Positions 8,991 to 62,634 of a stretch of DNA of 64,000 bases are shown here, one piece after another. This DNA comes from Nymphaea colorata (lineage: Eukaryota > Streptophyta > Magnoliopsida > Nymphaeales > Nymphaeaceae). A program made the translations under genes and the position numbers. The notes beneath the pieces are model-generated. The model was not told the DNA's origin, did not search any database, and saw nothing but the letters and a program-made list of their open reading frames with translations. Position 1 is the stretch's first letter, and each line of letters begins with the position of its first letter. The stretch covers positions 38,617,115-38,681,114 of the forward strand of contig NC_045138.2 of the NCBI RefSeq assembly GCF_008831285.2, given 5' to 3'.

Positions 8991-9360
8991 TGTTTCATAT
9001 TTCATTGATATTATTATGTAATATTCTGTTTATATCCATCTTCTAATCATGTTTCACTATATTCTGTAAAACTAAAAAGTCTGATTTCTCGTTTCTGTTT
9101 CGGATTTTCAGTTAGCTTTTAAGTCGTCATACGATGTCTGTTTCATATTTCATTGATATAATTATGTAATATTCTGTTTTATATCTATATTCTAATTATG
9201 TTTAATTATATTCTGCAAAACTGAAGTCTGATTGCTCATTTCTGTTTCAGACTTTTATCTAACTACTTTGTTACATTATTTCTGTTTCATATGTCATTGA
9301 TATGATCACATAATATTCTGTTTATACCTATATTCTGATTATGTTTCATTATATTCATAT
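8991..9360. repeat. 148-bp minisatellite, about 2.5 copies
   Basis: Three successive copies begin with TGTTTCATAT at 8991, 9139 and 9283 (periods 148 and 144 bp). Each continues through a TCATTGATAT block, a TAATATTCTGTTTATA block and an AT-rich ATTCTGCAAAACT region; the third copy stops around 9360. The array is bordered by GC-richer sequence around 8875-8940 and 9685-9710, so it may be the interior of a larger transposable element. Confidence 0.75.
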
Positions 9361-20582: not shown

Positions 20583-23384
20583 ATGGCGTTCCTTCAGTGT
20601 CTTTCCCCTAGCTTCACACTTCCACTCAAACCCAAGTCCCACAATGGCGACTCAACTCCTTTCCTGCATGCTTCCAACTCCCTCTGCGGATACCCACTTG
20701 ACGATTCATCCCATTCTGGTATGGAACTTGTTCTGCTAACCTTTTTTTTTTTTTCCCTATATTTTTGAAGACAGCACCATAGGCTTGAACCGTTATTTGG
20801 GTTGTGTGGTGACTAAAGGGATTCTTCCTCGGTGGAATGTTATTATGTGCAGAACCATCAATGAGATCGTTCAGGATGGGTGGAACGAAAGCTTCAATTG
20901 TTTGCAGTGCTGGTTCTGAAGAGAATGCCCAAAGGGACGGGAGGAATATATATGTCAACAAGGATAAACGCCAAGCTGAGGTTTGCATTGAGAAGGTGCA
21001 ACGTTTCCATGTGGTTTTCCTTTTAGTACAATTTTGACTTTTTGTTTTGTAATTTTTTGGTCGAGCGATTTTCTTTTCTGCTGTCCTTATTCGTTAGCAT
21101 TGTTCGTCTGACGTTTCTTACTTCCATACATTGCCACATCAATACCCAAAATTGTCATTAAGATTGTTGAGTCCCAGGGTGGAACAAACTGCTCTCCTCT
21201 TTATATTGTGGTGTTGATGTAGTACAATTTCATTTTCGCTTTTTATGTTGGATTTTTAATAAATCGTATTAGTTATCCTGTTTTCTTTCTTAGTCTCCAC
21301 TTTTGGCTTCTGATCCCTTCAAACGTTTCTTGATTGGCTGCTCCTTTTCGTCCTTTCTCAATGACTTTGTAGTCACTTTTCACTGAACGGGTCCTATTGC
21401 TGTCGATCAAGTGCCAGAAACTATACTTCCTGAACCTGTATTTAATTTATTGTTATTCAAATATTCATCACCTAGTTAGAAGTTTGAAGCTTATATTCTG
21501 ATTTTGTTTTTCTGGTGAAGCAGAATACAAGCTCATTTTGCTTAAGAAAATGTGCAGTATCGCTAGCACTCTCTGTTGGCCTGATTTCTGGAATACCTGC
21601 TCTTCAATCACCTGCTTATGCGAGTGAAGTTGCTGGCCCTGCGCTTCCTGATCTCTCTGTGCTGATATCTGGGCCTCCCATTAAAGACCCAGGCACCTTA
21701 CTAAGGAATGCACTGCCTATTAATAACAAAGCCATTAGAGAGGTTCAAAAGCCACTCGAGGACATCACGGAAAGTCTTAAAATTGCAGGCACCAAGGCGT
21801 TAGATTCTGTTGAGAGAGTATGTTAGTTGAATCTGTATTCCCATATTAAATTCCATTTCCATGTTGTCATTACCTATTCTTCCTTTACTATTTTTCATCA
21901 CATTTTAGTGACATGTAGTCACTGCAATCCACAATTTGAATACAAGGACCTCTCTGGTGTTGAAATCAGTTTTTTTTCTTTCCTTCTTTTATTTTCCGAT
22001 GGCAGAATGTGAGGCAGGCTTCCCGTGCTCTTGCTCAAGGAAGATCTGCCATTTTGGCTGGTCTGGCTGAGCCAAAAAGAGAAAATGGTGAGGAGTTACT
22101 TGATAAGTTAGCTGTTGGACTTCAGGAGCTTCAAAGAATAGTGGAAGACAGGAACAGAGATGCAGTAGCACCAAAACAAAAGGAGCTTCTTCAGTTTGTG
22201 GGAACGTAAGTGTCTCAGGATACTTAGTTTACCAGCTGCACATGCTTCACTATCATGTCCAATCAATACACCTGTATCCCCTGTCTTGTTTATCATTAAC
22301 ATGTTTGGGCACCTCATTTGGAATGCAGCAAAAGTTTTGGTTAGAAGAATCAACATTTCCATTTTCTGTGCACAGCATCATTTATCCAAATGCATAATGT
22401 TCCATTGAACAAAGCAGGTTGCCCTTGTTCTTGCTAATGTTGAAGATGATTCAATTTTCATGGAGAAAAACCTGAAGAGTATTATGCGGGATAAGCTAAA
22501 GAAAGATGGAACTGTTTATAGTTTGCAGTTATTTCCTCGTCGTTCATGGGATTCTTCCTTCTTTGGCTTAAACATGATTGCTGCAATGTTTCCAGTATAT
22601 TAGCATCTACAAGCTTGGTAGAAGAAAACTTGATCATTAGTTAAGCTTAGTGTAAAGGGACCCAATACCCAAGGATGAGACTCACAAAACTTTTTGACTA
22701 CCTTGGTCTGTCTTAATGCATTCATATCTATAAAGAGTTTATAGTGTCACAGTTTGGGAATATTTTTCTGCTTGTAGTTGTGAATTTGCATTTGCCCCAC
22801 AACTAAAAGTGCCAAAATCAAGAAAAGTGGTTTACTGTCATGAGTAATACCAATTTGAATAGTATATAAATGGTGAAAATTTTCTATGAAAGAAAATCTA
22901 GAAAACGATAATGAAGATTTTGGACTATGAATATGAAATGTCAGCAGATATACATGTCCCAACAACTCAACAGGAGACATATGTAATGTGGAACGTCTTC
23001 TTGTTAATTGATATAGACACCCGCATTGTCTCTGTATTTTATTTACAAACTGTCATTGAGATATTAAAATAGAAGCGAAAACGTGAAAGTTTAACTAGTC
23101 TGCATGAAAAAAATCACAGAACACACGAGAGAAAAGAGTATGTACATCTAAGAGTAACACTCGGCATAGGATCCCAATACTTAAGTTTTTTCACTGCATT
23201 AATTTTATGTGCTTGAACAATGTTAATTATTTTTTGTCATGTCATTTTGAGATAATCTCTTGTCATCTTCCATGAATGCAAACATCTCTTTTCATGCAAT
23301 TGCTTGACACCTAGTCAAGCCTCCTATGTCATAGTATAGTAAATGCTATCTGAATCTTACTTGTTAGTGCCTTATTCCTCAAAA

Positions 23385-23422
<38 letters not shown>

Positions 23423-26172
23423 AACAAGCTCTTAAAGTTCACATATGTGATCCACCTTAAGGGTTCAGATACAAATGGAAAAAGGAAAATGTGCTGAAAA
23501 ATTCCTATGTTTAGTGCTTAATTATTTCTTTCCTTCTTTTTCTGTTTGGTTAAAGTTTCCACTTGTGTGGTTATTAAAAGATGTACCTCTTTCTTATGGA
23601 TTTATCCTATTGCAATGTTCAGGATTTAGTTAAATAGGTGTACGGGTGCAGCATATCTTCATATACTGAAGGAACATATTGATTTTAAAATTGCTGTCCT
23701 TGTTTTGGTAGTTAGTAGAGATGCTAATCAATCATGCTATTTATTTGAAAGTCTGTTGTTGAATGATGCTGTTAAAAGAAATAATCTCATAAAAATAACT
23801 TGTCCACTGCAGCTGATCTTCCTGGGAATTGGATTTCTGCAGTGTTGAAGAAGATATGGTAGACAGCTTCCCATATGAAGTCCCTCAAGAGTACAATAGC
23901 ATGCCTCTTTTGAAGGGTAGAGCAACTGTGGATATGAAGGTCAAGATTAAGGATAACCCCAATATTGAGAACTGTGTGTTTCAAATAGTTCTGGATGGTT
24001 ATAATGCTCCTGTAACAGCAGGAAACTTTCTTGACCTGGTGGAACGACATTTCTATGATGGAATGGAGATACAAAGAGGTATTTTTTTTGTACTACTGTC
24101 ACATTTGAAAATAAGTTCTTGCATTGTAAGAGATAGAAAGGTGCAGATAATTGCCAATACAAAAAATCCTCTTCATATATTTGGATAGGATGAATCCATC
24201 TCTTTGTGATTTTGAACCTTTGTTTTGATACGTTGTGGTTTTATTGCAGCTGATGGTTTTGTTGTTCAAACTGGTGATCCTGAGGGGCCTGCTGAAGGTT
24301 TTATTGATCCAAGCACTGGTAAAACAAGGACAATTCCACTGGAACTAATGGCTGTTGGGGACAAGATGCCTGTTTATGGTGCAACACTAGAAGTAGGTCT
24401 CATCAATCTATAATGCTTGAAATATGAATTGACCTCATGATTACTGCGTATTTTTTGGTGCAAAATCACTTTGTGTGATCGATGTAAAACTTCATGAGAT
24501 CTTTGTCATTGAATGCTTTGGAGAAGGTAATTACAGCAGACACTCCAAAATGCATCTAAAATATGTTACTTGAGTTCCATATCATATAGCACATGCAATA
24601 AATGTTCAAGTCCCTTGTCTGTGTAGGGATAGACAAGTGAATGGGTACTTCAAGTTTTCAACCTTGGAAATTATGTCCATACATTTACCTATTTCATGTA
24701 AGATGAGGAAAGGAACTATGCATCTTTCACCGGTTGTTATGGGACCTCCTTTCCTTATTATAAAAGATCGATTATGTTGGTGGAAATTCCAGGTTCTATG
24801 TTATATTATGGTACTGCGTGATGAACGGAAAAACCTTCCTCCTTTTTGTCTAAGAATTTATCCCAAATTCAGCATTTCTGTTTAGTCTTTATTTTCTTAC
24901 CACTAATAGCATATAACCTCTCCATGTGTTTGGTTCACCCTTTGGGGGTTTCTTATAAAAGTTACTCTCACGAGAATAATGAGGGCTGGAGGTATGAGAT
25001 GCCCCTTGTGTCTCTTTGTTTCTGATTTTCTGATTGAATGAATTGCATGATGGTCACCCTGAGAACTGTAATCTGCACGTTTTCCATTATGTCGGGAAGC
25101 GTGGTTTATGAGAGGATGATTCTCGTGAGGGGGGTCAAGTAGGTGTGAGTTTAAATTCTCAAAATGCTTAAACGGCATGTGTGATAATTGTAAATATATA
25201 AATATAGGCAAGCAGCTACTGTTCAACAAATCATTTTGACCTGTAAATAAGTCATAACACTAGAATACAACTGATATGTGCCTGTTGCTCGTGAGTTTCA
25301 TGTAATGAAAATAAAATGAAAGTTATCTTCTGAAATATTTGTATAGAATTTATTCTCCACACATGTTAGCATTCCATGGGGTAATAGGATCTGTTCTACA
25401 GTAGCAGCATGTTCTTGTTATTATGCTAGTATGTGAACATGCAAATGGGTGAAACTATGCAACTATTAGGCTTCATGGTGGTCCAATGCTCAAAATCTTG
25501 CAAGTGTATACCTGGGCACAATTGATCGGACTAGTGTTATTTATCATTGTGAACTAAATAAACCTAGGATGTTTGCTCCAGGATCCCCTTGGTAGGTCCG
25601 TCATTAGAAAAGGTGAAAAAAAAAAGTGAAGAAGTGCGTCGTTACATGTAAAGGTTTCATCTTAAAATAGTTAGTGCTGGTGCTAGTGAATGCTTTTGGA
25701 TTTCTGAACGGTATATGAATTGACTTGATTGTTGACTTCCTGTAGGAGCTTGGACGATACAAGGCACAAACAAAACTTCCATTTAATGCATTTGGAACAA
25801 TGGCAATGGCTCGTGAGGTAAGTCCTCACGCAATTTTCAATTTTCTAATATTCTTTACTCTGATCACCTGCTCTCTGTGAATTTCAGAAAAAGTTTTTCT
25901 GTTTGTATAAATGTTTGGCCACAACTTTGGTAAATGTGTTGCAGGAATTCGAGAACGACTCTGCTTCAAGCCAAGTATTTTGGCTACTAAAAGAAAGTGA
26001 GCTCACTCCGAGCAATGCCAACATATTAGATGGGAGATATTCAGTGTTTGGATATGTCACAGACAATCAAGATTATTTGGCTGATCTTAAGGTAGGTGAT
26101 GTCATAGAGTCAATGCAAGTTGTATCTGGTCTCGAAAACCTTGTCAATCCTAGCTATAAGATTGCAGGATAA
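20583..26172 (+). CDS. CYP38: Peptidyl-prolyl isomerase-like protein CYP38/TLP40, chloroplast thylakoid lumen
   Basis: Lumenal multidomain cyclophilin that helps photosystem II assembly and repair; the Arabidopsis protein is reported to act as a folding/assembly factor rather than an active isomerase. Eight coding exons: 20583-20718, 20853-20980, 21524-21817, 22006-22205, 23843-24078, 24250-24392, 25746-25817, 25945-26172. They total 478 residues (Arabidopsis about 437); all junctions preserve frame. The end of exon 2 is uncertain: a donor at 20996 would add five residues. Exons 1-2 encode a chloroplast transit peptide. Exon 3 starts with a hydrophobic thylakoid-transfer segment ending in SPAYA. 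Next comes the helical domain ([42 protein letters not shown]). From about residue 256 follows the cyclophilin domain ([62 protein letters not shown]) to the typical end [15 protein letters not shown]. Confidence 0.95.
22418..22603 (+). other. Open reading stretch inside CYP38 intron 4
   Basis: A 61-codon open stretch begins directly after a CAG acceptor-like trinucleotide and ends at TAG. It starts [20 protein letters not shown], contains [19 protein letters not shown] and ends MIAAMFPVY. Composition looks protein-like, but I do not recognise it and CYP38 proteins have nothing at this point. A possible donor (GTATAT, 22595) would make a 177-bp cassette. If spliced into CYP38 the phase-2 junction would read it in another frame with an early stop, so it would act as a poison exon. 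Confidence 0.25.
23387..23420. repeat. AT microsatellite, CYP38 intron 4
   Basis: Uninterrupted run of about 17 TA/AT units in the 1.6 kb fourth intron. Confidence 0.85.
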
Positions 26173-26509: not shown

Positions 26510-28311
26510 TCGTGAGAGAAAACAACAAGCAAAAAATGGTTAAGAATCAAGATGGATTTTTACACCTTAATGCTCATTTCTCTTTTTCTGTTGGAACTTC
26601 ATGCTTCATGTTGTGGGACACACGCTGGTGTGGTTCCATGGGCAGTCTTTCTTCAAGTGCATGGAATTTTCCCTATAAGTAATCATAACAAGCTTTAACC
26701 GCAACCGCCAAAGCAATTGTTTTTGTATGTACCCTTTAGCTGCAAAAACCTGTTGGGATTCGATCTTTTTTCAAATTTTTGGGTTCATAGTGACGCACTA
26801 TAATTACTGGTTTACAATATTGGTCATATGCATATTATATTCTTTATAACTTTTAAGATTCAAAATTTTGAATAAGCCCCACCAGTAAGCCTTGTAAGGA
26901 CAATGTCCCGAAAAAACTTAAGCAGCTGAATGGCAAGGCTGATGCTTCATAAGGGCTGAAGCTAGTGAGTGAGTTGAAAAAGAATATTTTGAAGAATAAA
27001 AAACTACTCTCTCTCTCTCTTTACACACACACACACACGTGTAACATGGAACTACTGTGAATCCCGATAAAGTTTCATCTTTGTGTCACCAAACTCCAGG
27101 ATATGAGGCTGTGTATGCCTTCTTCTGAGTGTTTGTAGTATCATTCTGTCTCTGCTCGTATCTGTTGATGCACATTGGACCATTATCATGTAATTGAAAC
27201 AATAAGAGACTATTTTTTAACTGGAACACTGTATCTGTGTTTCATGAATATGTTCGAAAGGTTATGGCAGATTCACATAACACTAGAATCCAATGTTTCA
27301 TATACAGATTCATATAACACTAACATAACATGTCTATTATCAAATGCCCCTAAAGAAACCAAACCCCACTCGGAACATGCTAATATAAGGCCGGTATCAT
27401 TGGCCTATATTCGTGCTACAGTCCCATATCGGCTGATACATTAATAATACAACAAAATAACAATGACAGTAATAATAATAGTATAATAACCAAGTTTTAG
27501 TTTGTACTTGATCTGCTAAGGCTGATACTAACGACCCAACTTGGCATTTTCTGATGAGCCTGTCGACATGTGTTCCTTTCACAGTTTGACAAGTGCAACG
27601 CCACAATCATTGGGTCTAGGGATGCAAATGAATCGAATCTGTCATTTTTCAGCCGATATTAGGTTTGCTTCTGACCTGACCTGACCTCTAATGCAGCTAA
27701 GTAAGCTGTTTTCGAGTCCAACACTCCGTATTCTTACTACTTATAAAACACACGACAAATGAAGAATTTGGTTCTCAACTAGATCCATATCATTTTCTAT
27801 ACGTGATTCACGTGTATAACCCCTTAATAAGATGATACAAAATATGTCATTTCAAAACAGTGGTAGAGGCTTCTTTGGTTTGGTATGACCAATTGCGGCA
27901 TTGCCCACATCAATCCACATAAGAGAAACCTTATTTTATATATTGATATCTCATTAATGGGTGGAGTTCAAGTTCAACATTGAACAAATGCTAATTTCCG
28001 GCTTATAAAGTTTTTATGGCAAATTTCAATCTTCCTTCCTTCCATACAATTGCTTTTTGACATAAGAACTTAAGTCACGACAATCTTTTGTGGTTGAAAC
28101 AAACGGGAACTTACGGCTTTAGGAATTTCATCTTAAAGTTTTAGATTAGTTGGATCCTGCGTGCGGCTGCTAATGCACCATTCGGTCATCCTTAACGTGG
28201 TATTTGTTTTTAATAGAAAAAAACCACATAATTCACATAGATTAAGTATATTTATCATACTTTTACAAGATTACACGAAGAAACTTGGATAAATAGTTCT
28301 TGTTAATATTA
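26510..28311. other. Intergenic stretch downstream of CYP38
   Basis: No gene is supported. It contains a CT run (27008-27021) followed by a CA run (27025-27038) and a short TAA/AAT-rich patch near 27.45 kb. Confidence 0.5.
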
Positions 28312-28558
28312 GCGGCTAATAGGGCTGCACAACGAGGCGAGCCAACTCGAGCTCAACTCGAGCTCGAGCTTGACTTATTTATAAACGAGTCGAGTTGGAG
28401 CTGAAAGTTAAACTAGAATCAATAAACGAGTCCAGTTCGAGTTGCAAGAACTGAACTCGACTCGGTATATTAAATAAATTGAATTGAATGAACCGGTTCG
28501 AGAAACCGGTTCAAAATTCTTTTCATTCCGCCATTCGTTCTCCACTCACCGTCTGCTC

Positions 28559-28722
28559 TCTCTCTTCCGCTGGACTGCTGCTCTCAGCCTCTCACCCCTT
28601 CCGCTGGACCGCCGTTGCTGCCCTCTCTCGCCGTTTGCTTTCTCTCTTCCGCTGGACTGCTGCTCTCGCCGCTTCTGCTGGACCGCCGTTGCTGCCCTCT
28701 CTCGCTACTGCTGCCTCAGACG
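28559..28722. repeat. 82-bp tandem duplication in the hAT-like element
   Basis: TCTCTCTTCCGCTGGACTGC occurs at 28559 and again at 28641 (period 82 bp), each followed by GCTGGACCGCCGTTGCTGCC. The unit is CT-rich and lies in what would be the element's 5' leader. Confidence 0.75.
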
Positions 28723-29929
28723 CTGCGACGCACCTGCTCCCTTCACGCCAGGAACCAAGTAAGATGTTTTTATTGTAGTGTCGATCTTTTGAGATTTTTT
28801 TTGGTGGATTTGTAGATTTTCTTACGGCTGTCTGTTCTTCCTTTGGACATTATATTGTTTAGAATCGTGCTTCTTGCTACCTTTCCCCTTCTCTCGCTGC
28901 TGCTGCCTCACAGCCTCAGAGGCGTCCCTCTCGCTCTTGCTGGACTCCTGCTCCCGCCTTCACGTACCCCTTCAGCCTTTCTTTCATCTTCTCCTTGGTT
29001 GTTCTTCTTCTTCCTCCTCCTCCCAACTGATTTTGCCCAAATGCTGCCAGAAATCACTGCTGCTGCCTGCTGCCTTCTCTTGCCGCTGTTGCCTCAGACG
29101 CCATCAACGCTTGCATTTCATATCCAGTACGTTTTGATTCCTTCCTTTATATCATATATGTGGAGGCTTAAGAGGTTTACTCTTTCATATCCAGTACGTT
29201 TTTCAGATGATTACTCTTTTAAGAGGTTTACTATATATGCATATTAAGTGTTTGTTTAATTTCTTATGAAATTCATGTGGAGGTGAAGTCTACCTCACAT
29301 TTTCTTCCCGTCAACAGAACTTTTCCCTTCTATATGCAAGCATAGTAAAAGTCATCTAACCTGCCTGTCTTATAGCCACTTTCATTTGTTGGTATGACTA
29401 TTGTGAGTATGTGAATGCACATATGATGTTATTCTTTATTGCGCCATCACGTGAGTAAAACATCATCATAGCATGTCCAAGTTGAGGCTTCTTTATTGTG
29501 AATATGTAAAAACAAAATAATAGTTCAGAACAGTAATGTCCGACCATCTCTGCCCTATCTACAAGAGGCAGCAACGTTTTCTCTGCTTGATCAAGTGAAT
29601 GCTAAACCAACGATAGGAAGGGGGAGAGAGAGAGAGAGAGAAGGCATATGGGTTTCAGCTGGCGTGTGCCACCAGTGGCTTGGCTGGTAGACAGATGTGG
29701 CATGAGAAGGGGACTGCATCTTTGTCAACCCAAAACCTTAAACCTCTAAAGACAAGATAACAGGTTGCGTTTGATGGGTGGCTGGACCATTTCTCAGAAA
29801 CTAGGAACGAGAATTCCAGAATTTTGATTATTTTGTGTTGCGCAATGACATTGAAATTGGTTTTGAAAAGTACGAAGGTGGTTTAGGAAATCCGACTCAT
29901 GATGCACAAATGCTAAGGCTGTTCAGCAA

Positions 29930-30300
29930 TCTGAGGCCATTATCTCTTTGTAGTTTTCTTTATAAGATCATTTTTAAGGTGTTAATTATCGATTTAAAAT
30001 TGTGTTGAGCATAATTATAATCATAGAACAGAGTGCTTTTCTCCTTGGAAGAAGTTGATTTGATAATGTTATTAGAGCTTATGAAACTGTCTAATCTCTT
30101 AGCATGGATAAAACTGGGGGAATTCGCTTGAAGCTGGACATTAATAAGGCATATGATAAAGTAAACTAGGACAATGGGCTAGGGCTTTTGGAATTTTCAA
30201 AGAAATGGTCAGATGAAGTGATGGCTTATGTCTTTTCAGCCTCAATGTCTATTACGGTGAATAGTTAAGTGGGTTCATGTTTTGACAATAGCATTAATAT
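29930..30300 (+). mobile_element. LINE (non-LTR) reverse-transcriptase relic
   Basis: Plus-strand translation in pieces gives the ordered RT landmarks of plant L1-type LINEs. NLRPLSLCSFLYKIIFKVL corresponds to the RPISL-LYKIIAKVL block, EQSAFLLGRS-FDNVIRAYE to the QSAF-GR-DN-AHE block, and GGIRLKLDINKAYDKVN to the LKLD-KAYDRVNW block, followed by FSASMSITVNS. Several stop codons and frame changes break it, and the W after KVN is replaced by a stop. It is an inactive fragment with neither the endonuclease nor the catalytic YxDD region. Confidence 0.75.
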
Positions 30301-30680
30301 TAATGGAACATTTAATAAATGGGGAAGTTGGTTGGCTGCCACTATAGCTTCTCTTATCAAGGGAATCAGATAACGATGTGCAGACTTGGTTTCTTTGTGG
30401 CTAACAGCAGCATGATGATGTATGTGCAGACTTGGTTTTTGATTTGGCTACTCTCAACCTTCACTTTATAATCTTTGATCTGGCATCTCAACAATGTTTA
30501 TAAAAGGAAGCCTTGTTATTACTAAAGTATCAATCCCTATCAAACCATTGAATGTGTTTTGTTTCATATCTCTCTGTGCAGATACTGTGTGTTCCTATTC
30601 TTTGAGATAAGGCATGCTTTTACCTGTTTTTGTTAGTTCCAATACCATTAATGAACAATATTTTGCATCATGCACTATTG

Positions 30681-30683
<3 letters not shown>

Positions 30684-30742
<59 letters not shown>
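30684..30742. repeat. AT microsatellite
   Basis: Nearly pure AT run of about 59 bp with one GT interruption, inside the truncated hAT-like element. Confidence 0.85.
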
Positions 30743-30743
<1 letters not shown>

Positions 30744-31819
30744 GATGATCTGCTATGTAATGTATTTGCTTATTTTTTGTTTGTGCGTTGTTGTTGGTTG
30801 CATGTCTTTAATTCTTTCTTATTTTAATTTGTTTTTACGAAAGAAGCATTGTGAATTTAAGAAATGCACTATATAACTTTAGGTAATTATTGTATTACAA
30901 ATTAGTCCTTTTATCTACAGAAGAAGAATGTTTTCACCGAGAGAAAATACTATTAGTAAAGACAAACAAGTATTATGCAGTTCAGGAGCAGGTTCAACAG
31001 AACCACATAATGTAGGAAGCTCTACACAACAGTCTATAACTCATGACAGTTTAAATTCTACTAATACAAGGTCTGTTGAAAATGAGGATGTAACTGTGGG
31101 TGGTATGAAAAGACAAAGAGCAAGAACTTGTTCAATTTGGGATAAAAACCTTTCTGATCAAGCTTTTGCAACTCAAGATAAGATTATAATAATATCAGAA
31201 CAAGTCTATGCTTAAGCCAACGAATGAAACTTGTATACCATATATATATATGACCTCACTAAGACCAAAACTGAAAAGATATGTCCCGAAATTAGTTTGA
31301 CGGATGTATCATATGCATGTTCATTTGTATTACGTGTGGCGAAATAGCAAAGGATACTGTACGAACTGGTTATATTCTATGAGACAGACTTGGTGGAAAA
31401 AGGGGTCTGGACTCCAAACACACTTTTTCTATTTTGAGCTTTAAAAGCCCCAAACGACTGACTACAACACACTCTTCAGAGCAGAATGTGAGGGAGCTCT
31501 TGTATGTTTGAGGAGAAAAACATTGATTAGGGGCCAATTTCATGTACGGAAGACTGATGTCATATTGAAACTTGAAAGTACAGGACTTTCACAAGTTTCA
31601 TCATCAATGGTATAAAATTGTTAACCATTAGTGTAGATTTTGTTTTAGAAAATCTTAGTTAAATGACTGTCATATATATTTTCTTGGCAATATTATGACA
31701 CACTCAACAATGGCTGAACTTTTTGGAAGATCTGATGATCTTGCACATCAATGTTCTTAGACAGGCATGACCAAAAGAATTGCAATATACATACATATAT
31801 AAATGTATATAGAGTGAGT

Positions 31820-32048
31820 GAACGATGACTTTGGTTATCTAAAGTCACGCAACCATCTTACCAGTGCCGCCATCTAAAGCAGATGAATGGTAGAGAGAAA
31901 AATAAAGAGAAAAAGGTATAAACTAATATTAGATGATGAAAATGCCCCTCACCTCTTTATCGGTGTTTTTCTCTTAATTGTCCATCATGTTGAATTAGAT
32001 GACCCATATTAGATAGCTAGGTGACTCTGAAAGCCAGAGTCATCATTC
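31820..32048. mobile_element. Foldback MITE in the left arm
   Basis: A roughly 229-bp unit has terminal inverted repeats (GAACGATGACTTTGG at the left; GAATGATGACTCTGG when the right end is reverse complemented). Each end is itself a small palindrome (TGACTTT...AAAGTCA and TGACTCTG...CAGAGTCA). The same unit sits in the right arm at 36413-36641, so it inserted before the duplication. Confidence 0.5.
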
Positions 32049-32350
32049 AATTTACCGATGTATTTATGGTATAAACTCTCATAGTTCATACTTTTAAGTT
32101 GCATCTGATTGGCCAACTAGATGGCAACCCATCCTGTGTGCCACCATGCATTTACATGAAAAATATTACACCAAAACTTTACGAACTATTGCAGAGGAGT
32201 TCATGCAGACGTAGCCAAGGCTTGCAATTGACAATCTAAAGCTACTTTTGCCAAATATTATAATTCCAAAAATCAAGAAGATACATTAAAAATCTGATAG
32301 TCTTTGGTTCTAAAATGGGGCTGTTGCAGCAGAAGCATCAACATCGGAAG

Positions 32351-32683
32351 TTATATGACTATATTAAGGAGGTTGGTTCTTGCCTTGTAGACTTGATGAG
32401 CAATGGGTACAAATTCAGGGATGAGCAACCCATTGTCAGGTGGTTCAAGGGTCCTACAGGGGTTCAACTTCCTTGCTTCTTTCTCCAATTTTGCCCTCTG
32501 TATAAGCACTTTCACGGGGGTTGGATATGACTTCCTTTTAGATTTGTCCCTAGCTGGCCTAGGAAGGTCAACATAGGCCAGATCCTTGTGGGTATCTGAT
32601 GAAAAGAAAGATCGAAAATACAGGAAAAGCCTTCCTCTCGTGCTTGCAATCTTTTGAGAGGACCACATATAGTAGTATCTCAT
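32351..32683 (-). pseudogene. Inverted, truncated copy of APO3 exon 1
   Basis: Minus-strand reading frame of 110 residues nearly identical to the first exon of APO3: same mitochondrial presequence (MRYYYMWSSQKIASTRGRLF) and same APO N-terminal region (LAYVDLPRPARDKSKRK, LIQRAKLEKEARKLNPCRTL, LEPPDNGLLIPEFVPI). It departs from APO3 after ARTNLL, where a deletion fuses the exon to intron sequence and adds NIVI before a stop. Both cysteine motifs and the second exon are absent, so it cannot make an APO protein. The frame is still open, which argues for a recent event. Its promoter-side sequence is also duplicated, so transcription antisense to the locus is conceivable. Confidence 0.92.
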
Positions 32684-33128
32684 CTGTGACTTGCAAAATC
32701 AATTTCTTATCATCAGATATCCTCTTAGAACTCAAAAGCATAAACTGGAAGGTTAAACTTCTCAATTTCATTTATCATTTAATGAAATGGAAATGCCACT
32801 GCTGAGAAACACAAAAAGAATAGATTCCAAGACTCCGTTTAAGTCGTGCATGCAAAAAATCACATAAGGAACACAAAAGTATAATATGCAAGCACATACG
32901 ACAGAACCAACAGAATAGTATTTAAGACACAAGAAAATTATTCTAATCTTATTTCCCCGACAGCCCGACATAGGCTCTAGAAAACGATCAATGGGCTTAT
33001 AGGCTTCCAGCACAACACAAGAATATATTCATGCTTTTGCTTCTTTGAACTACTACACAAATTGCGGAAACACTCACAGGTTTTAAGCATGCAGATGCAG
33101 ACGCAAGTTTGTGGTTCTCATGGACAAG

Positions 33129-33794
33129 CACAGAAGTAGATGCCGATGTAGCAGGAGGAGAATAAACAACAGATGGATGATCAAGTCTCTGCTATGAAAT
33201 GAAAAGGAAAGGCTTAGTGAGGTAGACGAGGTTTTAGTGGATTGTCTCCCGTTTCCCTCTCTCTTCGTGATCGGCAATTCCTAGCCCCCGCAATCTCGTT
33301 CAACTGTCCTTGTTGGTTTGGAGATCTTCTATATTAATTTTGTATTGTATCTTGAGATTCTGATTCTATGCTTCTGAGTCCACCTGCGTGGTCTTCGCTC
33401 TAGTGCAGACTGTGATTTTCTTGCCGGAACTTCATCTAAGTTCATTGTTTCATGCTTTGTAGGTTGGAAATTAGTTCTAAGAAAGAGCTAAAATTCATTG
33501 CTAGGGTGGTTTAGTTTTAATTTTCTGTCACAATGCTGATGTAGAAATTACGATAATTAGCCACATGCTCTTCAGTTACTCTGAAAATTTTGTGCCATCT
33601 GCAGTGGAATTTGGCCGAACGTTGGTAGACATGCTCGCACGACAATGGCTTTTTGTTACCTCGATGAAGATTGGTGAACGATAGTTACGAGTTCTAAAGA
33701 TTGATGAACGAGAAGGCTTTAGCGTTACTTTCTTCTAGTTGTAGACTAGAGGGAATCAGCCCAGCTCCATTAGATTCGCTAAGTTTACTCAATT
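33129..33794. other. Spacer between the inverted-repeat arms; possible APO3 promoter/leader
   Basis: About 666 bp of unique sequence between the two arms. It contains a CT-rich patch (33253-33268) and an intron-acceptor-like TTTGTAG near 33.46 kb, and could hold the APO3 promoter and a 5' untranslated exon. It could equally serve the antisense copy on the left. No reading frame is supported. Confidence 0.3.
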
Positions 33795-34557
33795 CTTGTC
33801 CATGAGAACCACAAACTTGCGTATGCATCTGCATGCTTAAAACCTGTGAGTGTTTCCGCAATTTGTGTAGTAGTTCAAAGAAGCAAAAGCATGAATATAT
33901 TCTTGTGTTGTGCTGGAGGCCTGTAAGCCCATTGATCGTTTTCTGGAGCCTATGTCGGGCTGCCGGGGAAATAAGATTCGAATAATTTTCTTGTGTCTTA
34001 AATATTATTCTTCTGATTTATAGGATTTTAGGCACTGAACGTGATCTAGTTATATGGCAATGAAGGGAAGCCTCATTTGTACGATTTGAAAAAATATGCA
34101 ACGTACAAAGTTCTTGATTGAGTGGTAAATTAGTAACATATAGTTATGCCTATCAAAAGTTTGTCGAAACGCGCAACGAATCTCTGGCTTCAAGGACCAA
34201 GTGTGGTAGGCTACTAGCTTAATGCTTCTTTGCTAGGATGAATTGTGCATTTTTTTTGTAACTCTTATATATGGTTTCCAGAAACTGTACTCACATAGCA
34301 ATTCAATGTTGTAAAAAGCGTATTGTAAGCCGTATCGGTCTGGCATTAAGATACGCTGTATCGTAAAATATCGTAACGTATCGTAACCGTATCGTTTTTT
34401 TTAATAAATCAGAAAAAATAGGAAAAAAATTGAAAAAAAATCAGTAAAAAACAAGAATAATATGTTCTTCATGAAAAACACATAGATTTATAAGCCATAA
34501 GGTCCATAAGTCTATGAGATACCACATCAAAAAACAAGTTTTAGATGTTATGTATTA

Positions 34558-34743
34558 CATCAGATACCCACAAGGATCTGGCCTATGTTGACCTTCCTAG
34601 GCCAGCTATGGACAAATCTAAAAGGAAGCCATATCCAACCCCCGTGAAAGTGCTTATACAGAGGTCAAAATTGGAGAAAGAAGCAAGGAAGCTGAACCCC
34701 TGTAGGACCCTTGAACCACCTGACAATGGGTTGCTCATCCCTG
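34558..34743 (+). pseudogene. Partial third copy of APO3 exon 1
   Basis: 186 bp matching 35054-35238 of the real exon in the same orientation: SDTHKDLAYVDLPRPAMDK through LEPPDNGLLIP, then unrelated sequence and a stop. It lacks the presequence and everything after the APO N-terminal block. Two residues (LAYVDL and TPVKVL) agree with the inverted left-arm copy rather than with the functional gene (LSYVDL, TPMKVL). Confidence 0.9.
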
Positions 34744-34966
34744 TTTTGTCGTATGTGCTTGCATATTATACTTTTGTGTTCCTTTTGTGATTTTTTGCAT
34801 GCACGACTTAAACGGAGTCTTGGAATCTATTCTTTTTGTGTTTCTCAGCAGTGTCGTTTCCATTTCATTAAATGATAAATGAAATTGAGAAGTTTTATCT
34901 TTCAGTTTATGCTTTTGAGTTTTAAGAGGATATCTGATGATAAGAAATTGATTTTGCAAGTCACAG

Positions 34967-37900
34967 ATGAGATACTACTATATGTGGTCCTCTCAAAAGA
35001 TTGCAAGCACGAGAGGAAGGCTTTTCCTGTATTCTCGATCTTTCTTTTCATCAGATACCCACAAGGATCTGTCCTACGTTGACCTTCCTAGGCCAGCTAG
35101 GGACAAATCTAAAAGGAAGCCATATCCAACCCCCATGAAAGTGCTTATACAGAGGGCAAAATTGGAGAAAGAAGCAAGGAAGCTGAACCCCTGTAGGACC
35201 CTTGAACCACCTGACAATGGGTTGCTCATCCCTGAATTTGTACCCATTGCTCATCAAGTCTACAAGGCAAGAACCAACCTCCTTGATGGTTTGTCAAAGC
35301 TATTGAACGTTGTTGATGTAAAAAGGTGCAGGTAATTTTTTTTTTTTTTGCATTTAAACAATTTGATGAAATTGCTTTCAAATTATTCTCAATTTTTCTT
35401 TTTCTTTTTCTGAATTTTATTTGTTAATGAATTACAAAGTGGAATGATTGCTACATTAGGTTGGACCTACTACACAAAGTACATATAGGGCTTCAAATAT
35501 TTTCTTTGAAGCTTTTAAGTGAAATGTGGACTATCTTCAATTATAGTATTCTTTTTTCATTCTATTTTTTTAATATCTGTTGTTATTTTTCAAAATGCTG
35601 TCAAATCAAGATATTTCAAACAGTTTTTAAGGGAAACATTCTAAAGTTCATAACTTAGTCCCCTAACATGTATTGGTTGAATCGGAAGTTAGATACATGA
35701 TGTAAGATAACATAATAGAAAAAGTTGCCACTTTTTACTACAAAATTTCATGGAAAATTTAGAAAAGATTAGGAAAAGGTAAAAAAAAAAAAAAATCCCC
35801 ATGAAAGAAAATGAATTGCATAACCATAAGTCACATAAGAAATAACAATGGCAAACATGGAACACATTTCAATAGAAATATAGTAATCAAGATGCATCCA
35901 TTAACTAAACTTGAAATTATAGTCCCTAACACAAAAGTCTGAGAGTAAAACCTGAAGTAGCATAATTTCAAAGTTCAAATGCCTAATAACAAGGTCCTTA
36001 GACTAGTCAAATTAAGAACATATATCTGTGATAAAAATTTGATATCTTCGTTAAGTTCTTTGCTCCATTAGGTTCTCCTCCCCACAAGTTCTCTTAATAT
36101 AGTCATATAACTTCCGATGTTGATGCTTCTGCTGCAACAGCCCCATTTTAGAACCAAAGACTATCAGATTTTTAATGTATCTTCTTGATTTTTGGAATTA
36201 TAATATTTGGCAAAGGTAGCTTTAAATTGTCAATTGCAAGCCTTGGCTACGTCTGCATGAACTCCTCTGCAATAGTTCGTAAAGTTTTGGTGTAATATTT
36301 TTCATGTAAATGCATGGTGGCACACAGGATGGGCTGCCATCTAGTTGGCCAATCAGATGCAACTTAAAAGTATGAACTATGAGAGTTCATACCATAAATA
36401 CATCGGTAAATTGAATGATGACTCTGACTTTCAGAGTCACCTAGCTATCTAATATGGGTCATCTAATTCAACATGATGGACAATTAAGAGAAAAACACCG
36501 AGAAAGAGGTGAGGGGCATTTTCATCATCTAATATTAGTTTATACCTTTTTCTCTTTATTTTTCTCTCTACCATTCATCTGCTTTAGATGGCGGCACTGG
36601 TAAGATGGCTGCGTGACTTTAGATAACCAAAGTCGTCGTTCACTCACTCTATATACATTTATATATGTATGTATATTGCAATTCTTTTGGTCATGCCTGT
36701 CTAAGAACATTGATGTGCAAGATCATAAGATCTTCCAAAAAGTTCAGCCATTGTTGAGTGTGTCATAATATTGCCAAGAAAATATATATGACAGTCATTT
36801 AACTAAGATTTTCTAAAACAAAATCTACACTAATGGTTAACAATTTTATACCATTGATGATGAAACTTGTGAAAGACCTGTACTTTCAAGTTTCAATATG
36901 ACATCAGTCTTCCGTACATGAAATTGGCTCCTAATCAATGTTTTTCTCCTCAAACACACAAGAGCTCCCTCACATTCTACTCTGAAGAGTGTGCTGTAGC
37001 CAGTCGTTTGGGGCTTTTAAAGCTCAAAATAGAAAAAGTGTGTTTTGGAGTCCAGACCCTTTTTCCACCAAGTTTGTCTCATAGAATATAACCAGTTCGT
37101 ACAATATCCTTTGCTATGTCGCCACACGTAATACAAATGAACATGCATATGATACATCCGTCAAACTAATTTCGGGACATATCTTTTCAGTTTTGGTCTT
37201 AGTGAGGTCATATGTATATATGGTATACAAGTTTCATTCGTTGGCTTAAGCATAGACTTTTTCTGATATTATTATAATCTTATCTTGAGTTTGCAAAAGC
37301 TTGATCAGAAAGGTTTTTGTGGATTCATGAAACATTTAAGTGGTATCAATTTTATTACAATATAAATGTCATTTTTTTATTGTTTGGATTAAATGTCTTC
37401 TTTGAATTAATGTTTTCTACTTCTAAGTTATGCTTAGTTCTTAATTGAGATTTCATGCTAAAAAGCAATGTACATTTCCAATTAACCAGCAAGAAAATCA
37501 TAAGCAGATTCATGGTGCAGCTACCACTTTCATCAAATTTTCCAGCCCAATATTGGGTCAATTGGATGGCAAGGGCCTTTCTGTTGATTTTTAAGATGGT
37601 AGAATGGGTAAATGGGTTCATGTGCTTTAATTGTGCAGAAAAGAATTCTGCCATTTTCATTTGTTATATGCCTTCAAACTTTGAAGGAAGGATCTTGAAG
37701 AAGTTTGCCATGATTTTGCTTTTCGTTACAGTAAAAGTTGATGTAGTGCTCCTGTTCTTTATGTACCATTGCATGTTAAACCTTTATGGAAAATATATGC
37801 AAGAGTCACAGGACCACCACATGTTTCTCTCCAAGGAGGGTTTCTGTGTGTCTGTTGAGTATATGTGGCTGTTCATTGTGTTTATGCATCCTTGCAGGAA

Positions 37901-38987
37901 ATTCATATCTCTGGCTGCCTTAGCTTTACATAAGCTAATGCAAATCTTCTTGTTTCATTGTCTAGTGGCTACGTGGCATCTCATAAAGGATTTATTCTTA
38001 AGTGAACTTTTTATACCCATTAGGAGTGCCTTTCTTTCCCAAGTGTAAACTGGTTTTTGGTGTACAAGAAAATGTGTTTAGCGGTGTCTGTTTTTAAGTT
38101 GCACAATGGCATAATTCAGACTAATGCTCTACAGTGTCTTATTCCTGTCATCCTTCATGTTCAGATTTTGCTCAGAAGTTCATGTTGGCCACGTGGGTCA
38201 TGAAATAAGAACATGTACAGGCCCAAGAAGTGGTCTAAGAAATGCCATGCATGTCTGGACCAATGGGAAAGTTGTTGATGTTGTTGGATTTCCCTTGTGC
38301 TTCCATCTAGATGATAGAGCTAAGAAACCAAGAGTTGTACATGATGAGAGATCTACAGTCAAAAGGCTGCCTGCCATTGTAGAGCTCTGCATTCAAGCTG
38401 GATTAGACCTTCCAAAGTATCCAACTATGAGAAGAACTAGGCCTGTCCACTCCATTGAGGGAAGAATCGTTGAATTTGATGATGATTCAGCCTCAAACAA
38501 TGACATAAGGGATGAGGTCAGCATGGATCTCCCTGGTAGTGAATGTCTTGATTCTGAAGAACTTACAGGTGACATTACTGAATTGAGCATCAAGATTTTA
38601 GAGTCTTGGTTCATAATGAAGAATGGAGCAGAGGAACTTATGAAAAAGTTTTCTGTCCAGACTTGCGGGTATTGCCCTGAGGTCCAAGTTGGTCCTAAAG
38701 GGCACAAGGTGAGGATGTGTAAAGCTGCTAAACACCAGTTTCGTGATGGCCTGCATGCATGGCAGGAGGCAACCATTGAAGACATTATAGGAATGAACTA
38801 CGTGTGGCATGTGCGAGATCGTGATGGTCCTGCTCTGAGGAATGAGCTCAAGAGGTACTATGGTAAAGCTCCAGCTGTTGTTGAATTATGTGTACAGGCC
38901 GGTGCTCCCATTCCTGATGAATTCAGGAGCATGATGAGGTTGGATGTAGTTTCTCCTGACCGGGATGAAGTGGATCTTGTTGCTTGA
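34967..38987 (+). CDS. APO3: APO protein 3, mitochondrial
   Basis: Member of the plant-specific APO (accumulation of photosystem one) family of zinc-binding RNA-splicing factors; the APO3 branch is predicted mitochondrial. Exon 1 is 34967-35331 and exon 2 is 38165-38987, joined across a 2833-bp GT-AG intron within a split Arg codon, giving 395 residues (Arabidopsis about 400). Seen: an Arg/Ser-rich presequence without acidic residues (MRYYYMWSSQKIASTRGRLF), then PRPARDKSKRKPYPTP and LEPPDNGLLIPEFVP. The first APO motif is C121-x2-C124 with VGHVGHEIRTC; the second is C289-GY-C with VGPKGHKVRMC. The protein ends in the APO3-like MMRLDVV...DEVDLVA. A leader intron may end just before the ATG (CACAG^ATG). 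Exon 1 and part of the intron are duplicated in inverted orientation upstream. Confidence 0.94.
36413..36641. mobile_element. Foldback MITE in the right arm (APO3 intron)
   Basis: Reverse-complement partner of the unit at 31820-32048, with the same double-palindrome termini (GACTCTGACTTTCAGAGTC at its left end). It lies in the intron of APO3. Confidence 0.5.
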
Positions 38988-40550
38988 TGGAGCCCATTTT
39001 GTTTTCCTGCACCAGCCTTTTATGAGTTGGATGCAGAGGCCTGTGTTGACAAGGATTGTTACCACCAACTCTCACCCATGTAAAATATGCTCTGAATTTA
39101 ATTCGAAGGAATACATTATATCTAAAATTGTAAAGTATTTGAGCAGATTTTACGATTTCACTAAGTTGTGTGATTTTATTAAGGTCAAAATTATGAATCA
39201 CATGCGTTGATGGATAATTGATGAAATGAAGAGCATGATGCAAGTTGGCTAAATATTTCATCAATTACGTGGGTCTGTCGTTTGATAGTTAGACCGGTTT
39301 TGCATGTAACATACTGTAAGTTAGGTTACGGAATTAACCATGAAGAAAACAGTATGATAAAAGGTTCTGTGTAACTTATGAACGCATATCATATATTATG
39401 TTAATTGTAACATAACGTATAATTGCACCTTAACATAAAGACGCATAAGAAAATTGAACCTAAAACTATAAATTTCTTAAAGCTGAATGTCTTCTTCATC
39501 ATGGAGAATGTTTACTTCATCATGGAAATATTGTTATAAATTTTAATCCAGAAAAAGATTTAGACTGATTTCATGCAATAAAGTTAGATTTTTCATCCTT
39601 TTTTTTTCCTGGAAAAGCTTATGTCAGTTCTCCAAAATGAAAATTTTCAAGTTTTATGATTTTACCACCATTGAGTCGCTTGAAGACTAAAAAATCGTGT
39701 CATTCACAATGAAACCTTCTCCATTCTAATGCTCATTTAAGTATTAATAGCAATTTTAAGTGATTAATTTTGATTATTTCTAATTAAGGTGTGCATGTTG
39801 GATCTTGGAAGCAACATATAATTTTTTTTTTTGTATTTTATGCAACTCATGTTTTCACATTGGAACTTTTCTTACTTCCCATTTTTTCTTATATTTTGTA
39901 TTCGTTTTCATTTTTAAATGTCTTGGTATCATTAATATTAAAAAAAAAAAATCCGTAACCTTTTGCCTGTCCAACTTTAAACCAGACAGACACGGTTTTA
40001 TTGTAGTTTTACAAAGTTGGCTTGGGCATTAACTTAGACAGAAACTCACGTTCCCATTATGTCTTCTGCAGATTTCTGGCACAACAGAATTTTGAGAATC
40101 TTTTATGGAGACCAATGAGAAAGAATACATCTTACTGGTAAAGACAGCCTAAATTAAGTGAAGAACCTTACTCTATGGAGGTGAAAATATCAATAGAATC
40201 AAAAGACGTAGAGATATTGAATGGTGGGTTCTACGTGAAGAAATAACCTTGATGGTTAAAATGGATGAACCCTTGTAAGATAACAGCTGTTGTTAATTAT
40301 TTCTGTCTGCAATCAGCAGTCACTTCCCAGCAAAAATTTTTCAAGATTAATTTTTTATGGTCAGCGAATCAGGTATGTTGTGAAATTCATTAGTCTTCTG
40401 ACCGATTTTTTGTTATTTTGTTAAAAAGAATGTGGATAATGGCTCATAGTCTTCAGTAGCTGAAAATGACAATCTTATCCTGACGTTAAGAAATTTTTTA
40501 CAGCATTTTGAATATATGACAGAGGATTCAAATTTGCCGGATAATTACTG
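38988..40550. other. Intergenic stretch between APO3 and the HD-domain gene
   Basis: AT-rich sequence containing the APO3 3' UTR and the start of the next gene's upstream region. I see no gene, transposon end or RNA gene. Confidence 0.5.
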
Positions 40551-40932
40551 GACAGTTAGAAATTAAAAATCTGTCACTAAAAACACCTTAAAAACATAGC
40601 CGTGGATGCGCAACGAGATTCGGAAATTCGGAGTTGCCAGTTGCCACCATCTGGTGGCTGGAGCTTGTTCCACAGGCCTCGACTTGATGTCACCTACCGA
40701 ATCAGACTCCCCAAAGAAGAACCGTATGGTGGCACGACTCCGAGGACTGCATTTCAGCCCCATGTGTGATTCTCATTTTATTTTTAAGACAGCGTTTCCC
40801 ATTCTTGCGCAAGAAACTACGGACTCCCCACCTCTCTCCGTTCTTAACGACATTTGAGAGAAAGCGTGGCATCATCTTCGGAGGAAGCCATTCTCAGAGG
40901 CTCTTAAGAAAACCCATCAACTCAGAGAGGTC

Positions 40933-40994
40933 GATCTCCCAAGGCAAGAACCTAAAGAAGCAAGATCTCCCTAGGCAAGAACCTAAAGAAGCAA
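40933..40994 (+). repeat. 31-bp tandem duplication abutting a start codon
   Basis: GATCTCCC(A/T)AGGCAAGAAC... occurs twice in succession (40933-40963 and 40964-40994) with one mismatch. The second copy ends on the A of the ATG of the HD-domain gene, so the duplication lies in its 5' leader. Confidence 0.85.
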
Positions 40995-43900
40995 TGGGTC
41001 TGAATTCCGCACTCTCCTCTTCTTCTCTTTTCTACCAACCATTCCCATCTTCATCGCCATCGTCATCTTCTTCTCATTCGTTCCCTGCCCATCATTCCTT
41101 TTTGGTTACACCCAATTCGTTGAAGCTCCTCATGCACAAGGGGAGTTTGTCACCTGCACCCATATTGATCAATCTCACCAAGAAGTCTTTCTCACGGTTC
41201 TTTGCTGCTGCCAGTGGGGATTCGACATCTCACCGTGAATTCCCAACTACTGCATGCGGCAACGGAGCTCCGCTGTCATCGTCATCCTCCGCCATAGATT
41301 TCCTTACCTTGTGCCACCGGCTCAAGGTTGCGTCCCCGATAATATGATCTCTGTTCTTTCATTTGTTTCCTCTTCTTTTGGCGGTCTTTGATGCAGAAAA
41401 CTTGTTATGCATGGGAAAATTGATCGTTTCATTTGTTTGCGTAACTTGTCGTTTTACTTTCTTTGATTTCCCTTTCTATCATGCTTTGGTCCAAACAATT
41501 AGCGTGAAATTCATGCGGATCAACACAAGCTTGTGGGAAGTGTTTGAGTTTCTGATGGTACGCTTAGATCAGGTTGTATGTCCAATATCTGTATCTCGCG
41601 CATGAAGGTCGTGATCGAGGGCAATCATTTACCATTGCAACTACGAAACAATCAAGTGCAACCACATTTTATTGCAGCTAGGAAATAATCTAGACAAATG
41701 ATAGCAGAGGATCCAGCATCTAGCAAAAACAAAAAAAATTCGAATTCACGACTTAAGAGATGTTTTAGTCTAATCTGTTTCGTAACTTTTGCACTAGAAC
41801 ACCCCACTAAAGTATAATTAGTGATCGGCATTGTGATGATTGTGATTTCTTTTATTTATTGATGCAACCTACCAGCTAGTGCGGTTTTGTCTGGAGTCTT
41901 GGTTCATGGGGGTTTGTGAAATGCTGAACGAGATGTTATCTGACGTTGAACCAAATTGTATAAATATGCTATAGCACTTACGATTGTCATATGGCTGATC
42001 AAATTATCCTCTATCCTTTTGGTATCATTATCATCTCAGTTAGTTTTCCTCCATATATGCAGAAATTACCAAGACCTTTAAATTCTGTAACACTTCCTTT
42101 GATGTTATGTGATCCTTTTCTCACTCGTATTGATTTATGTTTGTGAGTGGTGATGAATTGAAAGGTTTCTAAGTATTGATGATAGTAGGAGATATCTTCA
42201 TCTTCTGTTAAAACTTGAAGCGAAGGATTTTTGCAATATGAGGTGGAAAATTGAATGTTTTCAGAAATGACCAGTGAAGACAGGGCTAAAAGATGAATGA
42301 AGTTGGCTGCTGTTTTGGAAAAAAAATGGAAACAACATATGCTGCATAAAGTATCATCTTCATTAAGAAGGACTAATACTGGTCTACAGGTAATACACAA
42401 CTTGGATGTGGCATAGTTTTCGAACTTCCAAGTTTTAATGCAGGGGTGCTTAAAAGGAGTCAAGTACATCTCAGATTTTTGAGCAATAAAAGTCTTTCAT
42501 GATTCTTTGAGTTCACCAATGTCCACCTCTCTAGAATTCATATCTAAACTTGTTTTTTTTTCGTTCTTGACACATACTCTAAATGCGCAACTCATTTTCC
42601 TTGTGGGTCCTTGTAAGGGAAAGAAAAAATTTGGAATGTTACAATAGAGGACAGATGATTTATGTTTTAACCTTTTCAGTCAGGAAGAAATTAAACATAA
42701 TATCAGTTGGACAGAAATGATACTCATGTCCAATGGGAGGTTCAATCCCATTCGGAAAAGGAGTAAGGGAAGACAATGACTGTAACCATCTGGTCATCAT
42801 GACATCTTTTGGAAAAGTATACTCTATCTAATGGAGAAATTCGAGATTATCAGATATGCTGCTACATGATCATATCCCCGATCAGTCTATGATCTTATTG
42901 TAAATCAAAGTTTTATATGTTGCTGTGCAAAGGTAGCTTCCCATCCTTACAGAAACCATCACCTGAAAACTGATCTATTCACCCTCTTTGGATAAGGTGT
43001 TTGTTCATTTGAAGTTATACTGTTGAACCACTTATAGATTGGCAACCCTGAACTCCAATCAACTCTCTGATGTATTATTGTCAATCTCTAGCAGCCATGG
43101 TCTTGATCAGTCCGGAGCTTGACCATGGCCTGGTTTGCTGCATAAGATTTGTTGAAGTTTGACTAGAGAAGTTATGCAAGTTATTCCACCATCGTTTCAC
43201 TTGAGCAAGCTGTAGGATTGCAACTTGCTGGAGTCTGTTCTCTCTTCGCAGCCACAACTCCGTACAAATGGCTGAACCTCCTAACCAGGGACCCGATGAT
43301 GGAACACCCGCAGAAAAGCAAATGGGTTGACAAGCTACTAGAAGATAAATGTGTGAAACTATTTTATTGAAGTATAGGTTACATGTTGTCTTCTGTTTTT
43401 CTCTCTGCAGTATCCGTATTCTAACTTTAGCTTAAAGTTTCTCTTATGCTGGTATTCAGTGCTTGTGTGGCAGTTTCCTTTGGCTTCTGATACATATACT
43501 TTTCAATTCTTTGTCAGACTACCAAAAGGAAGGGATGGATTAACCATGGAATAAAGAATCCTGAATCAATTGCTGATCATATGTATCTCATGGCAGTTAT
43601 GGCATTAATTGCAAATGACATTCCTGGTGTGGATAGAGAAAGGTGGTAGACCCCACTCTGAAACTGGAACTTCAATTTTATGGCCTATTAATGTGTATGT
43701 GTAAATGCACGTGAACACTTACTTCTATGATCCCCAAACTGGCATAGCATGATTATCAAATAATTTTAAAATTGGAGTTTCTTCCTTTCTTGTTGCATTT
43801 ACACCTGCTGATTTGAAGATTAAGATTTATTGTCCAAAGCCTCACCCTTCTATCATGTCCTATTTTTTCTCTTTCCATGTTGTTGTTTGATGCAAAGTAA

Positions 43901-62595: not shown

Positions 62596-62634
62596 CTTCC
62601 AGGCCCACATGGTTCTGTTTTTGAACGAAATTTG

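Follow-up and report, generated by a model that had tools for sequence, protein, structure and literature searches.

A truncated inverted copy of the 5' end of an APO-family gene lies head-to-head with the working gene in Nymphaea colorata

A 64,000-nt stretch of the Nymphaea colorata genome (assembly GCF_008831285.2, contig NC_045138.2, positions 38,617,115-38,681,114 of the forward strand), here called the window, carries a working gene of the APO family and, upstream of it, a truncated inverted copy of the gene's 5' end. The two lie in a large, gene-derived inverted repeat, in which two long and closely similar arms oppose each other around a unique centre. All coordinates are window positions, position 1 being the first letter of the window. 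The features of the locus are as follows.

31144-33128, minus strand: left arm, a truncated inverted copy of the APO gene 5' region, exon 1 and part of intron 1
32351-32683, minus strand: truncated exon 1 copy, with an ATG at 32683 and 110 open codons, the last 4 unlike the gene, followed by a stop; it has neither exon 2 nor the native donor
33129-33794, no strand: spacer, unique and 5' of both exon copies, the probable promoter or 5' leader region of the working gene
33795-37318, plus strand: right arm, the original copy, with the 5' region and exon 1 of the working gene together with part of its intron 1; it is continuous with exon 2
34012-34742, plus strand: insert of 731 bp found in the right arm only; 4 unmatched bp (32908-32911) stand at the same place on the left
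34555-34743, plus strand (the gene strand): third partial exon 1 copy of 189 bp, with an identity of 97.4% to the left copy and of 96.8% to working exon 1
34967-35331, plus strand: working exon 1 (coding part), with a GT donor at 35332 and in one frame with exon 2
35288-36092, plus strand: segment of 805 bp absent from the left arm, comprising the end of exon 1, the splice donor and the intron start
35332-38164, plus strand: intron 1, GT-AG, 2833 bp, with a partner on the left for 36093-37318 only
38165-38987, plus strand: coding part of working exon 2, including the stop codon; not part of the repeat

The arms were compared by self-BLAST of the whole window followed by base-by-base realignment. 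One inverted repeat dominates the window, and its left arm (1985 bp) pairs with its right arm (3524 bp) in three collinear blocks across a 666-bp spacer. These values bear out the earlier note on this DNA, which had described, by eye, two highly similar arms of about 2 and 3.5 kb separated by about 666 bp. The block next to the spacer (right arm 33795-34011, left arm 33128-32912) is 96.8% identical (7 of 217 positions differ), the middle block (34743-35287 and 32907-32363) 97.2% (15/545), and the last block (36093-37318 and 32368-31144) 98.1%, with 20 substitutions and 3 gap positions in 1227 columns. The right arm is the longer one because two of its segments, the 731-bp insert and the 805-bp segment, are unpartnered on the left. 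Chance does not account for the repeat, since 1432 inverted 16-mer pairs fall within the locus against 4 in the rest of the window (very simple words excluded from both counts). The spacer has no second copy anywhere in the window, and the flanks beyond the arms are unrelated (27000-31143 against 37319-41500, best match 22 bp at E = 0.18).

Over 1986 aligned positions the arms differ by 42 substitutions (31 transitions and 11 transversions), a Kimura two-parameter distance of 0.0215. The substitutions fall on the upstream part (15/441), the exon (7/321) and the intron (20/1224); the upstream part is more diverged than the intron part (Fisher p = 0.033). At a rate of 6.5e-9 per site per year the distance would correspond to about 1.7 million years, and to longer at slower tree rates; no date is claimed.

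The gene to the right of the spacer is complete in its coding part. Exon 1 and exon 2 join across GT-AG borders into a 1188-base frame with a single terminal stop, and the 395-aa product matches Pfam PF05634 (APO_RNA-bind) in two stretches (E = 2e-102). The gene is thus a member of the APO family with both APO motifs in one protein. The earlier note had called it APO3 and had placed its working first exon in the right arm; the identity holds at the level of the family, and the placement holds as well, given the frame shared with exon 2. APO proteins are organellar RNA-binding proteins, and APO1 is a chloroplast intron-splicing factor. No APO relative was confirmed in viral_contigs (3 pattern-matched stretches) or genome_contigs (50), as expected because the family is, to our knowledge, found in plants only. 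In excerpts of a 2022 review, the family is characterized by two APO motifs, Arabidopsis has four members (APO1-APO4), APO3 and APO4 are predicted to be mitochondrial, and a function is reported for APO1 only (PMC9497791).

The left copy is a different matter. It was described earlier as the same exon, antisense and still open, and it is indeed open from its ATG. However, it tracks the gene protein to residue 106 only, where exon 1 runs straight into mid-intron sequence and soon meets a stop. Its PF05634 match (5.6e-20, at 32354-32698) covers the beginning of one APO motif (profile positions 10-83 of 200). The bases CTT are shared at the join, and one of the seven left-right exon differences, at 35285, lies at the deletion join. 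The left copy is the deleted one because the missing segment, which holds coding bases and the donor, is gone from the left. The converse candidate, in which the left copy is the original, is rejected, as exon 2 is joined only to the right copy and the left one is missing the last coding bases of exon 1. The remaining exon differences are 4 replacements and 2 silent changes in 318 bp, with a pN of 0.016 and a pS of 0.028 (nonsynonymous and synonymous differences per site; Fisher p = 0.62). As pN and pS do not differ, no protein constraint is detectable between the copies, although six changes give little power. The left copy is therefore read as most likely a non-coding pseudogene fragment.

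The right arm contains a further piece of exon 1. This third copy closes the 731-bp insert in direct orientation, and its last base (34743) is common to the arm. The three exon copies differ at 8 of 189 sites. At 3 of these (35072, 35077 and 35135) the working exon is the odd one out, the third and left copies being alike; the left copy stands alone at 2 and the third copy at 3, one of them at its own edge. At 35135, the family profile scores the Met of the working exon at 250.9 bits and Val at 249.7, an advantage of 1.2 bits for Met. Because of the three bases shared with the left copy and the better fit of Met, a left-type sequence is weakly favoured as the source of the third copy. Left-type sequence is what would be expected had the left arm served, with jumps, as the repair template for a broken right arm. 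Near-simultaneous origin of all three exon copies, or a difference between alleles, is also possible. No flanking direct repeat of at least 4 bases was found around the insert. The first 543 bp of the insert have no match elsewhere in the window, and the insert was set aside as a repeat on that within-window comparison. Inside the insert, 34318-34400 holds imperfect repeated GTATCGTA-like words.

The orientation of the two exon copies determines what the locus can transcribe. Both read away from the spacer, with start codons 2,284 bp apart, a head-to-head arrangement that the earlier note did not mention. That note had proposed that transcripts initiated in the spacer would fold into a hairpin, and the orientation contradicts this: a spacer-born transcript, in either direction, is sense for exon 1 and covers one arm only, so it cannot fold. 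A hairpin would need a start left of 31144, an antisense start inside an arm or a minus-strand start right of 37318. A read-through transcript of the plus strand, if normally spliced, would moreover be expected to lose intron 1, including the 1226-bp pairing block, because the GT-AG sites are present. Near 33.2 kb the T-A skew turns from negative to positive, from -0.21 (33150-33249) to +0.20 (33200-33299) and +0.44 (33250-33349). This suits a promoter near 33.2 kb with the gene running rightward and perhaps a weak leftward start. An open stretch on the minus strand (33077-33191) crosses the border of the left arm and the spacer; it is preceded by an acceptor-like pyrimidine tract and ends at a GTGAGT donor, and the GTGAGT recurs at 33846 in the right arm. 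On these weak signals the stretch is a possible leader exon, either of the gene or of its copy.

Taken together, the locus is best read as an inverted partial duplication of the working gene's 5' end that is now a pseudogene fragment and whose hairpin transcription is occasional or absent, a reading to which we assign a probability of roughly 0.7. A partial inverted copy of the gene's 5' end would have been placed head-to-head upstream of the gene, beside what appears to be old transposon debris, probably through template-switching repair. The left copy would have lost its splice donor together with the last part of exon 1, and it has no exon 2. In a second reworking, the right arm would have gained the 731 bp, including the direct exon 1 piece, apparently copied from left-type sequence. 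For the working gene, ordinary rightward transcription with a start in the spacer is most likely, and double-stranded RNA would arise only when a transcript crosses both arms, which is taken to be occasional or absent and to have no established function. This reading draws support from the continuity of the right copy alone with exon 2, the CTT at the deletion join, the partnerless flanks and spacer, the exon differences without sign of protein constraint, the bases that the third copy shares with the left one, and the orientation, which places the spacer 5' of both copies.

Several points weigh against it. The direction and order of the events are read from one locus and few sites, and at 35072 the profile does not polarise Ser versus Ala (250.9 vs 250.8 bits). 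For the repair mechanism, shared bases are seen solely at the 805-bp deletion join. The arms also hold 1184 perfectly paired 21-nt windows between them. Finally, an excess of transitions at CHG sites is a hint, and only a hint, that could reflect past non-CG methylation and hence silencing.

The last two points bear on the main alternative, an active hairpin and small interfering RNA (siRNA) locus, in which transcripts cross both arms and diced siRNAs modulate the APO gene and bring methylation to the locus. We regard this as unlikely, though it is the strongest of the competing explanations. The capacity for pairing, asserted earlier for a transcript reading through both arms, is borne out by computation: unspliced plus-strand RNA of 31144-37318 folds with 1953 left-right pairs of 2613 and a minimum free energy of -3995.9 kcal/mol (without a shuffled control). 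In this alternative, such long and near-perfect pairing would feed dicing. However, transcripts from the spacer do not fold, so the pairing depends on starts elsewhere. A more specific form of the proposal is less probable still. In it, the promoter of the working gene would lie in the loop of the repeat, with the further exon piece upstream of the gene, and weak antisense starts in either arm would yield hairpin RNA through which the gene is methylated and dampened. The result would be a self-targeting, dose-sensing siRNA locus for an organellar RNA-binding factor, of the truncated-copy and not the two-gene type.

The transition excess is a trace that such silencing could leave. Between the arms, transitions occur at 11 of 110 CHG sites, 4 of 60 CG sites and 16 of 573 CHH sites (counts that leave out two unchanged sites at block edges). 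The CHG and CHH rates differ (Fisher p = 0.0016), as do CG and CHG combined against CHH (p = 0.0015), and CG against CHH gives p = 0.11. The CHG signal comes from 11 sites and is one of three tests, and it has no parallel in two direct repeats of the window that served as controls.

62632-63284: control direct repeat, 87% identical over 322 columns
8971-9356: control direct repeat, 81% identical, with overlapping copies

One control has transitions at 4/16 CHG, 22/95 CHH and 3/16 CG sites; the other has 3/16 CHG, 15/36 CHH and 8/11 CG sites, with more change at CG. Neither shows a rise at CHG, to judge from the counts only. The observed/expected ratio of CG is 0.40 and 0.48 in the arms, 0.56 in the window and 0.57 in the 5-kb left flank. 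This scarcity is not special to the arms, because the part of intron 1 to the right of the repeat (37319-38164) is far lower, at 0.12. The CHG ratio is barely reduced (0.98 and 0.92 in the arms, 1.08 in the window). The C state lies in the right arm at 19 sites and in the left arm at 12, a difference that is not significant (p = 0.28).

A published precedent also favours an siRNA locus. The closest case found is the VIM4-VIM2 pair of Arabidopsis thaliana Cvi, a head-to-head repeat of about 6.4 kb with first exons in its arms that produces siRNAs; in excerpts of that report, the unique centre is 50 bp, about 96 bp separate the two start codons, and the first exons contain antisense starts (PMC13213937). 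The same excerpts give about 2.8 kb between the VIM start codons in Col-0 and call the siRNAs Cvi-specific (PMC13213937). Both loci are head-to-head and structurally variable, with gene-derived arms that include first exons and first introns. As far as the excerpted account goes, they differ in that the VIM members are both genes and almost the same, with 99.86% identity between start and stop codon, whereas the APO locus has one truncated fragment and arms at 97-98%. The Cvi centre is very short, with siRNAs and antisense starts found, whereas the APO spacer is 666 bp and the locus is known from its sequence alone. In the gap between start codons, the APO locus is nearer the Col-0 arrangement than that of Cvi, which stands against routine hairpin formation. 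The VIM case shows that head-to-head repeats can make siRNA, though there transcription starts within the arms and the centre is very short.

Other systems share single traits with the locus, as far as the excerpts of their reports describe them. In Arabidopsis PAI1-PAI4, too, an endogenous gene is duplicated in inverted form, and one member gives no functional enzyme. However, in Ws the pair is arranged tail-to-tail and a heterologous upstream promoter reads PAI1 into PAI4, unlike the head-to-head APO locus (PMC3203196). The soybean I locus, an inverted CHS1-3-4 cluster, is another naturally occurring inverted gene repeat of a plant, but it spans 27 kb and its siRNAs are said to act on other family members (PMC3804491). 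The MIRNA birth model (Allen et al.) admits convergent or divergent inverted copies, and the APO locus resembles it in having a divergent inverted copy of a target gene adjoining that gene (PMC3237417). To that extent, the earlier proposal of a newborn MIRNA/siRNA configuration is fair as a starting arrangement. No MIRNA is demonstrated, however: Rfam at the gathering score returned 0 matches in the window, a search of known families only that a new family could escape. Arms and spacer alike greatly exceed the length of a MIRNA, and the duplex is long and near-perfect rather than a short imperfect hairpin. A 2-kb, 98% duplex would be an siRNA-type first stage at best, and not a MIRNA. The locus appears to be a real but rather ordinary duplication of a kind already known, in which a gene has an inverted fragment of its own front end beside it. 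Among the titles listed in searches of the open-licence literature, none concerned an inverted repeat at an APO gene; no single search joined precisely these terms.

An assembly artefact, in which two haplotypes or a fold-back read were joined in inverted orientation, is improbable. A divergence of 2% is within the heterozygosity range of outcrossing plants. However, a haplotype misjoin should continue as homologous flanks, and because the flanks are unrelated it would need two clean joins. A fold-back read would be expected to give near-identical arms, whereas these differ by 2.1% and by the 805-bp and 731-bp segments; fold-back is judged unlikely on these grounds and on the flanks. The window also lacks any N.

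It is more doubtful yet that the left copy still acts, either as a 110-residue peptide or as a divergent promoter or regulatory element for the working gene. Its open frame retains the ATG and the start of the APO domain, and the skew changes sign as at a two-way promoter. However, the copy covers less than half of the profile of one APO motif and nothing of exon 2, and its pN and pS do not differ. A transposon with long terminal inverted repeats is judged unlikely, as the arms are gene sequence and their outer ends share only GGAT nearby, the best match of a target-site duplication scan (4 bases, shifted by 2, a length prone to chance when shifts are allowed); no target-site duplication was found around the left arm alone.

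The surroundings of the repeat are of mixed character. By eye, the left flank at 30095-31143 resembles old transposon debris, presumably a decayed reverse transcriptase-like stretch of a long interspersed nuclear element and an open stretch like the start of a hAT transposase. The open stretch at 30883-31212 has no Pfam match at E 0.01. The neighbouring genes are a CYP38-like cyclophilin at 21488-24185 (PF21329 at 21488-21823 and PF00160 at 23817-24185) and a P-type ATPase at 54922-56319 (PF00122), which by eye we take to be a phospholipid flippase reaching about 59.3 kb.

In sum, the inverted fragment next to the working gene is most likely dead; that the locus is a source of self-targeting siRNA is a minority possibility. 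If silent, it would be a clean example of a plant gene that gained an adjacent inverted fragment of itself at a locus rearranged repeatedly. If small RNA is made from it, the locus would offer a testable early stage between gene duplication and an siRNA or MIRNA locus.

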